Below, one piece after another: positions 6,528-39,116 of a stretch of 64,000 bases of DNA (within the stretch, counting starts at the first letter, position 1; each line of letters opens with the position of its first letter). The stretch covers positions 3,478,501-3,542,500 of the forward strand of contig NZ_OZ038523.1 of the NCBI RefSeq assembly GCF_964036595.1, written 5' to 3'. The position numbers were made by a program, and so were the translations under genes. The notes below the pieces were generated by a model. That model searched no databases and was not told the DNA's origin. It saw only the letters and a program-made list of their open reading frames with translations. This DNA comes from Tenacibaculum sp. 190524A05c (GTDB taxonomy: Bacteria > Bacteroidota > Bacteroidia > Flavobacteriales > Flavobacteriaceae).

Positions 6528-8552
6528 TTAATTTAATAAACCTGCACGTTTTAAAAGTGCTTCTGGTTTTGGCTCTTGTCCACGGAATCGTTTGTATAAT
6601 TCCATTGGTTTTTCTGTTCCTCCTTTTGAAAGTACGTGGTCTTGAAATTTCCCAGCAATCTCTTTATTGAAAATTCCTTCTTCTTTAAAATATTCAAAAG
6701 CATCGGCATCTAAAACTTCGGCCCACTTATAAGAATAATAGCCAGCAGAATATCCGCCTTGAAAAATATGAGAGAACGCAGTACTCATACAGTTTTCAGC
6801 TACATCTGGATATAATTTGGTATTGCTAAAGGCTTTTAATTCAAAATCTTTTACAGTTGTTCCTTCTGCTGGTTTTCCAGAATGCCAGCTCATATCTAAT
6901 AATCCGAAACTCAATTGACGAAGTGTTTGCATTCCTTCGTGAAATGTTGCCGATTCTTTTATTTTCTGAACGTATTCCATTGGAATCGTTTCTCCAGTTT
7001 CATAATGTTTAGCAAATAACTCCAGAGCTTCTTTTTCGTAACACCAGTTTTCTAAAACCTGACTTGGTAATTCTACAAAATCCCAAGACACAGAAGTTCC
7101 AGATAAACTCTTGTAAGTTGTGTTTGCCAACATTCCATGCAACGCATGACCAAATTCATGGAATAATGTGGTTACCTCATTAAAAGTTAATAAAGAAGGT
7201 TTAGTTTCTGTTGGTTTGGTGAAATTACAAACTATAGAAACTTGAGGTCTGTCATTTACTTTATTTTTTATTTGTTGAGACTTATATGAAGTCATCCAAG
7301 CTCCATTTCTTTTTCCAGCTCTTGGATGAAAATCTGCATAAAAATGTGAAACAAAATTACCATTAGCATCAGTAACATTATATGTTTTTACATCTTCATG
7401 ATACTTGTCGATAGAATCAATTTCTTCAAAATTTAAATTGAAAAGTCTATTCGCAATTTCAAAAACACCATCAATTACATTTTCCAACTTGAAATATGGT
7501 TTCAATAATTCTTGGTCTAAATCGAATAATTCTTTCTTTAATTTTTCAGAATAATATGCTCCATCCCATTTCTCTAACTGATCAATATTATCAAGCTTCT
7601 TTGCATAATTTTCTAAGTTTTTGAACTCACGTTCTGCAGCAGGTTTTGCTTTTTCTAATAAATCATTTAAAAATGAAAGTACTTTTTCAGGAGCTTCTGC
7701 CATACGATCTTCTAATACAAAATGAGCGTGAGAATCATATCCTAAAAGTTGAGCTCTTTGATGACGAAGATTTACAATATTAAGAACGATTTCTTCATTG
7801 TTATTGTCATTATTTTGAAACCCTTTTTTTCCCATAGCAATAGATAATTGTTTTCTCAATTCTCTATTTTCTGCATAAGTCATAAACGGAATATAGCTAG
7901 GATAATCTAATGTAATTAGCCATCCTTCTTTTTCCTTTTGTTGAGCTAATAATTTAGCTGCTTCTTTGGCTCCTTCTGGCAATCCTTTTAAATCATCTTC
8001 GTTGGTTAAGACTAACTCAAATGCGTTGGTGTCGGCTAAAACATTTTCTCCAAATTGAAGTGATAATTTAGAAAGTTCAGCATCTAACTTTCGTAATTCT
8101 GATTTTTTGTCGTCATCGAGATTAGCTCCATTTCTTGAAAAACCTTTGTATTGTTTTTCTAGTAACATGTCTTCTTCTGGAGTTAATGTAAGTGACTCTT
8201 TTTGATCATAAACTGCTTTTACTCTTTTAAATAAATCAGCATTTAAAATCATGTCGTTTTTAAATTCACTTAACCAAGGAGAAATTTCTTTGGCTATTTT
8301 TTGAATTTCTTCATTGGTTTCAGCTGAATTCAAGTTGAAGAAAATTGATGTAATTCTATCCAGTTTTTCACCAGTACTATCTAAAGCAACTGTTGTGTTT
8401 TGAAAACTAGGAGTTTCAGAATTTTCTACAATTTGATTAATCTCTTTTTTAGCTATTGCAATTGCTTCTTCAATTGCTGTTTTATAATGTTCCTCTTTTA
8501 TAACTGTAAAAGGAGGTGTGTTAAAATCTTGAAGTAGTGGATTTTTTGTCAT
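6528..8552 (-). CDS. M3-family oligopeptidase (oligopeptidase A / Dcp-like)
   Basis: A 674-residue cytosolic zinc oligopeptidase. The catalytic motif HExxH is seen as H465-E466-F-G-H469 (VTTLFHEFGHALHGML), and the third zinc ligand Glu lies about 25 residues on in ELPSQVLENW. Length and the closing RAGLLN fit oligopeptidase A/peptidyl-dipeptidase Dcp of family M3. No signal peptide is present, so it probably degrades short peptides in the cytosol. The gene stands alone: the upstream purE ends in its own terminator at 8573-8609, and a 10-bp hairpin (arms 6480-6489 and 6508-6517) follows the stop codon. Confidence 0.92.
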   Translation of the reverse strand: MTKNPLLQDFNTPPFTVIKEEHYKTAIEEAIAIAKKEINQIVENSETPSFQNTTVALDSTGEKLDRITSIFFNLNSAETNEEIQKIAKEISPWLSEFKNDMILNADLFKRVKAVYDQKESLTLTPEEDMLLEKQYKGFSRNGANLDDDKKSELRKLDAELSKLSLQFGENVLADTNAFELVLTNEDDLKGLPEGAKEAAKLLAQQKEKEGWLITLDYPSYIPFMTYAENRELRKQLSIAMGKKGFQNNDNNNEEIVLNIVNLRHQRAQLLGYDSHAHFVLEDRMAEAPEKVLSFLNDLLEKAKPAAEREFKNLENYAKKLDNIDQLEKWDGAYYSEKLKKELFDLDQELLKPYFKLENVIDGVFEIANRLFNLNFEEIDSIDKYHEDVKTYNVTDANGNFVSHFYADFHPRAGKRNGAWMTSYKSQQIKNKVNDRPQVSIVCNFTKPTETKPSLLTFNEVTTLFHEFGHALHGMLANTTYKSLSGTSVSWDFVELPSQVLENWCYEKEALELFAKHYETGETIPMEYVQKIKESATFHEGMQTLRQLSFGLLDMSWHSGKPAEGTTVKDFELKAFSNTKLYPDVAENCMSTAFSHIFQGGYSAGYYSYKWAEVLDADAFEYFKEEGIFNKEIAGKFQDHVLSKGGTEKPMELYKRFRGQEPKPEALLKRAGLLN

Positions 8553-36396: not shown

Positions 36397-36846
36397 TTAA
36401 TCGTTATCATCCATTCGTAACTCTTTCCACTTAAAATTACCTTTACTTACTATAGATTGGTATTCTTTATGAAGTTTATTTACATATTCAGGATTGTTTT
36501 TGTCGCTTTCACTTGCTAGTCTAGTTTTTAGATATAATTCTTTAAGATAGTGACGTGTTTCTCCATAGATAACCCAAAGTTCTTTATGATTATAAAAGCC
36601 ATCCCAAGCGGCCAAAATGGTGCTAAGCGCACTAAAAAATAAGGTTAACATTTTTATAACTTCCTTCCAAACAGGGAAGTCATCTCCAATAGCAACTAAA
36701 AACGTAATGAGAGCAGAAGAAATTGCTACTGAAATATAAATGTAAAATGATTTTCTTTTATTTTTTGAACTCTTTCTAGAGCTATAGTCTATCATTTTTT
36801 GAATCTCATCTTGTAAGATTTCAAAGTTAGAATTATTCTGACTCAT
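36397..36846 (-). CDS. SLATT/DUF4231-like two-TM protein
   Basis: A 149-residue protein with a Lys/Ser-rich cytosolic N-terminus, two TM helices (about 34-54 and 63-85) with a short loop, and a C-terminal helical region (about 90-149) including the block WVIYGETRHYLKELYLKTRL. This topology and block fit the DUF4231/SLATT family, predicted pore-forming effectors that often sit beside nucleotide-signalling or SLOG genes. None of those partners is seen here; the neighbour is a Crp/Fnr gene. Family assignment is from pattern recognition and moderately sure. Confidence 0.6.
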   Translation of the reverse strand: MSQNNSNFEILQDEIQKMIDYSSRKSSKNKRKSFYIYISVAISSALITFLVAIGDDFPVWKEVIKMLTLFFSALSTILAAWDGFYNHKELWVIYGETRHYLKELYLKTRLASESDKNNPEYVNKLHKEYQSIVSKGNFKWKELRMDDND

Positions 36847-38338: not shown

Positions 38339-38881
38339 TTAAGAATTACAAATTTTACAGTCTTCTTTAGGTTGTATTTCGCCTACTAATTTACCGTTCT
38401 CATTTAATTTAAACCCACAACAATCCATAAATCCTTGAACAATCATTTTTCGAGCTCTTTGAATTTGAGATTTTACTGTTGGTAGTGGAAGATTCAGTTG
38501 ACTCGCAATTTCTTGTTGTTTTAAACCTTTTATATCGGCTAAAAATAAAGGAGTTCTGTATTTTTTTGGAAGATTTGTTACAATTCCTCTTAAACAGTCT
38601 TTTTCTGTATGAATGTGATCTTCAATTTCCACGGGAATATCGGAGTTGTCGAATGTGATATTTTTCCCTTGAGATTTAAAATGGTCATAAATTGCATTTC
38701 TAGTAATCGTAAAAATCCACGATTTTAATTTTGAAGCATCTTTTAATGTATCTAGTTTATTGTGTATTCTAATAAAAGCATCTTGTAAAATATCATCTGC
38801 AATAACTTCATCTTTGGTTTTGCTAATGATAAAACGCTTTAAATCTTTATGATATGTAGTCCAAACTTCTTGGGTAGTCAT
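38339..38881 (-). CDS. sigZ: RNA polymerase sigma factor SigZ
   Basis: A 180-residue ECF-type sigma factor. Region 2 (about 8-75) has DEVIADDILQDAFIRIHNKL and SKLKSWIFTITRNAIYDHF; region 4 (about 100-150) has LKQQEIASQLNLPLPTVKSQ. The C-terminal tail is cysteine-rich, with CCGFKL followed by EDCKICNS, a mark of the SigZ group that may sense metal or redox. No anti-sigma gene is near. Upstream on the same strand is a Cys-rich micro-ORF ended by the 38899-38939 hairpin, so sigZ probably has its own promoter between that hairpin and its ATG (only a 7-of-8 box TAAATTTA is visible). Confidence 0.9.
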   Translation of the reverse strand: MTTQEVWTTYHKDLKRFIISKTKDEVIADDILQDAFIRIHNKLDTLKDASKLKSWIFTITRNAIYDHFKSQGKNITFDNSDIPVEIEDHIHTEKDCLRGIVTNLPKKYRTPLFLADIKGLKQQEIASQLNLPLPTVKSQIQRARKMIVQGFMDCCGFKLNENGKLVGEIQPKEDCKICNS

Positions 38882-38898
38882 CTTAGTAAATTTACAAA

Positions 38899-38939
38899 AA
38901 ATGTCGCTTTGAATATATAATGTATTCAGAGCGACATTT
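38899..38939 (-). terminator. Long-stem terminator between the Cys-rich micro-ORF and sigZ
   Basis: A 16-bp stem (38899-38914 with 38924-38939), fully paired except one G-U, with a 9-base loop. On the minus strand it runs into TTTTTTG, so it is a terminator for the transcript carrying the Cys-rich ORF. Confidence 0.8.
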
Positions 38940-38945
38940 ATTTAA

Positions 38946-39050
38946 TTAACAATTGCAATTTGTACAGGTACAGTTTTCACAAGAACAGTTTTTACAGTCA
39001 TCTGTTGAGCAGCTTGTACAATTGCAAGTACATTGATTTTTATATTCCAT
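38946..39050 (-). CDS. Cys-rich 34-residue peptide, metallothionein-like
   Basis: An ATG at 39048-39050 opens a 34-codon frame ending in TAA at 38946-38948. The peptide has 11 cysteines (positions 7, 9, 11, 14, 19, 22, 24, 27, 29, 32, 34), that is one third of all residues, arranged as CxC and CxxC, separated mainly by Asn, Thr, Ser and Asp; aromatic residues are absent after Tyr3. This is the composition of a metal-thiolate cluster protein. It would be cytosolic (no signal peptide). It lies 66 bases downstream of the amidohydrolase operon on the same strand, has an inverted repeat directly before its ATG, and is followed by a strong terminator and then sigZ. Cys-rich sequence by chance in such AT-rich DNA is very unlikely. 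No known metallothionein family is matched by eye. Confidence 0.7.
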   Translation of the reverse strand: MEYKNQCTCNCTSCSTDDCKNCSCENCTCTNCNC

Positions 39051-39080
39051 GTCTATTATTTTTAAATTCACCTAATAGAC
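39051..39080 (-). promoter_or_regulatory. Inverted repeat directly upstream of the Cys-rich micro-ORF
   Basis: Perfect 8-bp arms GTCTATTA (39051-39058) and TAATAGAC (39073-39080) with a 14-base centre; one arm abuts the ATG. It could be a repressor operator or an mRNA hairpin masking the start codon. No T-run follows. Confidence 0.55.
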
Positions 39081-39116
39081 TCAGGAACTTTAAAAAAGAT
39101 GCATTTTATTTCAAGT

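Follow-up and report, generated by a model that had tools for sequence, protein, structure and literature searches.

A conserved 34-residue cysteine-rich peptide gene paired with a SigZ-like sigma factor in Flavobacteriaceae, a likely metal-defence operon

Introduction

Few bacterial groups are known to have metallothioneins, and no metallothionein from Bacteroidota is named in the open-access papers that we found. The described bacterial members (SmtA/BmtA of cyanobacteria, PmtA, and MymT) are small, Cys-rich proteins, 56-70 aa long (PMC12193353), with clustered CxC and CxxC motifs and few or no aromatic residues. SmtA is under the control of a repressor, SmtB. Metal can also be read directly by a sigma factor: CorE and CorE2 of Myxococcus xanthus (former ECF44) are extracytoplasmic function (ECF) sigma factors that metal switches through a C-terminal domain rich in Cys and a CxC motif within the linker (PMC8999054 and PMC3107203); in CorE2, whose tail is Cys-rich, the response is to Cd and Zn (PMC8999054). 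A third arrangement relevant here is that of amino-acid leader peptides with attenuation, i.e., a short open reading frame (ORF) rich in one amino acid, a terminator-like hairpin, and a downstream gene.

Here, we analyzed a locus of Tenacibaculum sp. 190524A05c within a 64,000-nt stretch of its genome (the window; all coordinates refer to it unless stated otherwise). A first-pass annotation, made without database searches, had pointed to an unannotated Cys-rich micro-ORF upstream of sigZ and had proposed a metal- or thiol-stress module. We report that the ORF is a conserved gene and suggest that it most likely encodes a metallothionein-like peptide, made from the same operon as a metal-responsive sigma factor of the CorE kind and serving a defence of the Zn/Cd type; its metal binding, the identity of the metal, and induction are inferred. 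A search of the open-access literature returned nothing on the peptide, on DUF3703 (a family that recurs beside it), or on SigZ together with Cys-rich proteins.

Results

Layout of the locus

The features discussed below all lie on the minus strand.

39076..39103, (-): ECF-like promoter, with TGCATC at 39098-39103 (-35-like) and GTCTA at 39076-39080 (-10-like)
38946..39050, (-): Cys-rich metallothionein-like peptide gene, 34 codons plus stop
38900..38938, (-): terminator-like hairpin between the peptide and sigma genes, then a T run at 38894-38899; dG -16.1
38339..38881, (-): gene for a SigZ-like ECF sigma factor of 180 aa
38594..38611, (-): potential ligands H91 and C96 in the sigma factor linker, invariant in 56/56 orthologs
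38342..38422, (-): sigma factor tail with C154, C155, C175, and C178, a putative metal-sensing site whose Cys are invariant in 56/56 orthologs

The Cys-rich ORF is a genuine conserved gene

The first-pass annotation had described a 34-codon minus-strand ORF with 11 cysteines in CxC and CxxC spacing, running from ATG to TAA, and this description held exactly. The ORF, MEYKNQCTCNCTSCSTDDCKNCSCENCTCTNCNC, encodes 34 aa, of which 11 (32 percent) are Cys, and occurs as a single copy in the window's genome (one 4.13-Mb contig). The same annotation had judged such a composition nearly impossible by chance. We simulated 60 sequences of 64 kb under an order-3 Markov model fitted to the window and scanned both strands in all frames; no 34-aa stretch free of stops contained more than 9 Cys, and the best one usually contained 5-6, versus the 11 observed, so that this claim held as well.

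Comparison among loci places selection at the level of the protein. The Cys spacing, C.C.C..C....C..C.C..C.C..C.C, is identical in 69/70 loci, and residues other than Cys are conserved too. Over 69 loci, the Cys codons have zero entropy at their first two positions and 0.80 bits at the third, where TGT and TGC alternate. Invariance at the first two positions combined with third-base variation indicates purifying selection on the protein, a check that the first-pass annotation had proposed and that the ORF passed. The peptide ORF is a genuine conserved gene, as this conservation at the protein level shows. An ORF on the opposite strand was considered and rejected: two antisense frames are open in 48/70 loci, but the substitutions track the minus-strand frame. 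An inverted repeat had also been reported at the start of the ORF. It is present (TGTAC-N8-GTACA), but in the window only (1/70 loci); we regard it for that reason as a by-product of the Cys codons and rejected it as a control element.

By the sequence criteria for the metallothionein class, the peptide qualifies as short, high in Cys arranged in CxC/CxxC clusters, and poor in aromatic residues, with none in the Cys core of 70/70 sequences; it does not meet the criterion of a match to a metallothionein family held in Pfam. A Pfam profile search with 19 members (E<=1) and an NCBIfam profile search with the peptide gave no match, a PDB search found no relative of the peptide, and a search of a plasmid collection was without a match. 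The peptide is like SmtA/BmtA, PmtA, and MymT in its small size, clustered Cys, aromatic-free core, and predicted metal-linked control, but unlike them in being 34 aa long with 32 percent Cys, in mostly having no His, and in matching no Pfam family. Furthermore, whereas SmtA answers to the SmtB repressor, the peptide is paired with an ECF sigma factor.

The peptide and sigma genes occur together in Flavobacteriaceae

Within the window's genus, the peptide is found in 25/36 genomes, and the sigma factor (>=60 percent identity) in exactly those 25; both are absent from the remaining 11. A family-wide sample gave the peptide in 65/397 Flavobacteriaceae genomes, covering 45/237 genera, and a phylum-wide sample of 395 genomes gave five matches, all of them in Flavobacteriaceae. 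In the sampled genomes, the peptide is a gene of this family of mostly marine bacteria, with almost nothing beyond it. One contig labelled as a Saprospiraceae metagenome-assembled genome (L116) bears the peptide, which reflects either wrong binning or transfer outside the family.

When sigma factors of the family sample were counted at E below 1e-41, 51/52 genomes that have the sigma factor also have the peptide. In the 52nd (G245; L143, about 6545-6965), the promoter is intact, but the peptide frame and the sigma gene are each disrupted, a double decay that is the expectation for two genes sharing one job, although this is an inference from sequence alone. Conservation of the Cys pattern beside sigZ in other genomes, which the first-pass annotation had named as support for its reading, was thus confirmed in 25/25 genomes of the genus and 51/52 of the family. 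In 70/70 fully examined loci, the sigma gene is immediately preceded by the peptide gene, with both on one strand. The gap between them is usually 40-130 nt (64 nt from stop to start in the window), and in two of the 70 loci sigZ starts almost at the peptide stop.

The pairing is not strict in the other direction. Of the 65 family genomes with a peptide, 14 (L129-L142) lack both the sigma factor and the operon promoter and carry a more divergent form that keeps the Cys pattern. The role of the peptide is therefore not wholly dependent on the SigZ-like sigma factor, and we infer that orphan peptides can function under other control. Several of the 14 genomes are small (1.3-2.1 Mb), and the neighbours of the orphan gene vary; by eye, those in L129 include carbonic-anhydrase-like and SulP-like genes.

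The sigma factor is SigZ-like and carries six invariant potential metal ligands

The neighbour had been called sigZ and credited with a Cys-rich tail; the tail held, the name only in part. The protein scores well against the NCBIfam models for SigZ (TIGR02959 and PRK09637) but under both cut-offs (172.2 vs 212 and 157.2 vs 168.65 bits), and we accordingly refer to it as SigZ-like. Its similarity to SigZ is nevertheless full-length, and the PRK09637 alignment covers profile positions 1-181 of 181, tail region included. The tail has a CC-x19-CxxC layout, which reads CC...CKIC in the window. Together with the linker pair, it supplies six potential metal ligands (H91, C96, C154, C155, C175, and C178) that are invariant in 56/56 peptide-linked orthologs. 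Four more distant SigZ-like proteins without the peptide keep a C or CC and a later Cys, but the invariant linker pair is missing from all four and the CxxC-type end from at least three. Such paralogs share CC...C with the peptide-linked factor, but not its linker HxxxxC and CxxC. In an AlphaFold model of the sigma factor, the domains are plausible and a short beta-hairpin separates the two pairs of tail Cys; at a pTM of 0.44, the model is no guide to whether the linker and tail ligands meet. A Foldseek search with the model returned ordinary ECF sigma factors.

We compared this protein with CorE and CorE2. The likenesses are a C-terminal extension beyond sigma4 that is rich in Cys, another thiol within the linker, and inferred targets that handle metal. 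No linked anti-sigma gene was seen among the neighbours that were profiled, which were not all of them. The differences are several: CorE has six tail Cys, the SigZ-like factor four (CC-x19-CxxC); the linker motif is CxC in CorE, HxxxxC here; the nearest profile of the SigZ-like factor is SigZ; and its own operon encodes a metallothionein-like peptide. The criterion of a Cys-rich C-terminal extension is met, but that of a linker CxC is not, and for the latter reason we did not file the protein as CorE-like.

The genes around the sigma gene vary, and of the profiled neighbours none recurs except the peptide and, within part of the genus, DUF3703. The first-pass annotation had noted that a Crp/Fnr regulator follows sigZ. 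This is true in the window, but such a gene follows sigZ in only 4/70 loci, and its proposed part in the module is not supported; Crp/Fnr and DJ-1 were both rejected as core members on this count (4/70). Two Crp-type regulators of the window lie near a gene for a SLATT-domain protein (36397-36846; NF033634, 86 bits vs a cut-off of 41) that was not found at the corresponding place in a near relative (G035). In another genome (G004; L062, 9358-9579), a partial second copy of the sigma gene, its 3' half, lies about 1 kb behind the intact one.

A predicted ECF-like promoter with fixed spacing precedes the peptide gene and, in relatives, metal-efflux genes

The sequence TGCATCTTT-N14-GTCTA (equivalent to TGCATC-N17-GTCTA) ends about 25 nt 5' of the peptide start codon. 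It precedes the peptide in 70/70 loci with one spacing; a script pattern recovered 55 of these, and the other 15, some of which differ at one base, were recognized by eye. The window's genome has a single exact match, at 39076-39103. No efflux gene there has the exact promoter and DUF3703 is absent, so the regulon of this genome may be the operon alone. Allowing up to two mismatches gave 37 matches vs 38 for a backwards control, which is uninformative beyond the one exact site.

We then took a census of 40 genomes of the genus with the pattern TGCATCTTTN{12,15}GTCTA. This gave 45 matches, 38 of the canonical 28-nt length and 7 of other lengths. The 38 canonical sites precede the peptide (25), DUF3703 (PF12487) genes just upstream of the peptide (6), CDF genes of the zinc-type transporter family TIGR01297 (4), a ZntA-like P-type ATPase (1), a CusA/CzcA gene (1), and nothing (1). 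None of the 7 non-canonical matches precedes an efflux gene; genes for a CPXCG protein and a desaturase were rejected as targets, because their sites, at 29 nt, are of the wrong length and probably due to chance. A fifth CDF gene behind the promoter was found in another genus. Among 12 genomes of the genus in which no peptide is known (one was not searched for it), the promoter occurs in one, with no gene behind the match.

In 11 genomes of the genus, a DUF3703 gene immediately precedes the peptide gene. In genomes without the SigZ-like sigma factor, it is found, by eye, among heavy-metal ATPase and Fur-type genes; in L280-L282, it has a Fur-type regulator on one side and heavy-metal ATPase or CzcB-like genes on the other. 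From this neighbourhood and the promoter, we infer that DUF3703, a family of unknown function, looks metal-linked. The promoter targets and the context of DUF3703 indicate metal stress of the Zn/Cd/Co type, an indication that again rests on inference from sequence.

A terminator-like hairpin separates peptide and sigma genes in many loci

An intrinsic terminator had been placed directly behind the ORF, and the claim held in the form of a terminator-like hairpin (38900-38938) with its T run. Such a hairpin is present in 34/70 loci by a strict criterion and in 48/70 by a loose one; by the strict criterion, shuffled sequences gave 0/210. Its likely effect would be to yield many peptide transcripts and few sigma transcripts, although control by read-through is inferred and has not been shown.

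Discussion

We propose the following model. Excess metal would load a sensing site formed by the sigma linker (H91 and C96) and the C-terminal tail (CC...CxxC), much as in CorE/CorE2, and the loaded sigma factor with RNA polymerase would act at TGCATC-N17-GTCTA of its own operon; recognition of this promoter by the sigma factor is an inference. As the first gene, the peptide would be represented by abundant mRNA, mostly ending at the hairpin where one is present, and read-through would provide a lesser output of the sigma factor. The peptide may then bind soft or borderline metal ions in the cytoplasm, most likely of the Zn/Cd type, and its 11 Cys would suit an M4Cys11 cluster like the one in the alpha domain of mammalian metallothionein. 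Relatives would use this promoter also to drive CDF, P-type ATPase, and RND metal exporters along with DUF3703; as the peptide buffers metal and the pumps export it, free metal would drop and the sigma factor would go off, a shut-off that is equally inferred. The metal half of the metal- or thiol-stress hypothesis is supported, because the promoter is common to metal-efflux genes in relatives and the ligand set is CorE-like. Against the model stand the absence of any data on metal binding, expression, or induction, the lack of a profile or structural link to known metallothioneins, the single promoter site in the window's own genome, the 14 genomes with an orphan peptide, and a sigma linker without the CxC of CorE.

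Among the alternatives, the one that survives best, unlikely as it is, has the sigma factor as the direct partner of the peptide, which would serve as a small anti-sigma factor or as a metal donor or acceptor that loads or strips the Cys tail, with buffering secondary. In its favour are the near-obligate pairing with one sigma clade, the joint decay in G245, and matching thiol ligands in both partners. However, 14 family genomes have a peptide with this Cys pattern but not the sigma factor, and the pairing is equally expected if the peptide is the main target of the sigma factor. A bolder reading, which we also doubt, is a closed loop in which the peptide is both a detoxifier and a direct reset element that strips metal from the Cys tail of the sigma factor. 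If true, this would be a control principle unlike that described for repressor-controlled metallothioneins, e.g., SmtA.

A second alternative, for which we see very little room, is that the ORF is a Cys-codon attenuator leader: scarce charged Cys-tRNA would stall the ribosome, the terminator would fail, and sigZ would be expressed. The system would then sense cysteine or sulfur shortage, and the peptide would not be a working protein. The layout suits this reading, with a Cys-codon-rich ORF, a terminator-like hairpin, and then a regulatory gene, and so does the excess of hairpins (34/70 loci vs 0/210 shuffles). Four points tell against it. First, stalling needs Cys codons only, yet the CxC/CxxC spacing is exact in 69/70 loci and other residues are conserved. 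Second, about half of the loci have no clear hairpin, and in two sigZ starts almost at the peptide stop. Third, peptides of the same pattern occur with no sigma gene behind them. Fourth, the promoter is common to metal-efflux genes. The locus thus resembles amino-acid leaders in its short ORF rich in one amino acid, hairpin, and downstream gene, but differs from them in exact Cys spacing, partial occurrence of the hairpin, orphan copies, and a promoter shared with metal exporters.

Third, the module might answer thiol or redox stress, with the peptide as a thiol buffer and the sigma Cys site as a zinc-held disulfide switch for oxidants or electrophiles. Cys-based sensors often answer both metal and oxidants, and a few loci (L151, L156, and L173) have an OsmC-type gene upstream. 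This gene is confined to those few loci, however, and the other promoter targets are metal exporters rather than thioredoxin, peroxidase, or thiol-synthesis genes. We rate this reading as very improbable, although thiol stress in place of metal remains possible and is not excluded. Finally, the view that the ORF is no gene but a chance or RNA-level feature can draw on its very short length and on the family profiles, which give no match, but is all but ruled out by the simulation, by codon change at third positions only, and by conservation over 45 genera.

On the preferred reading of a metallothionein-like peptide in a metal-responsive operon, the locus provides a conserved ultra-short family, present in 45/237 sampled Flavobacteriaceae genera, along with a predicted promoter and an inferred, unusual type of regulator. 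It also suggests a function, a zinc/cadmium-type metal response, for a SigZ-like clade that is without one in the sources searched. The locus further illustrates how the leading gene of a conserved operon can go unseen when a gene finder passes over very short ORFs. Elsewhere in the window, at about position 1942 of the minus strand, lies another stop-free stretch with 9 Cys in 34 residues; its spacing is irregular, and it is probably a chance frame.
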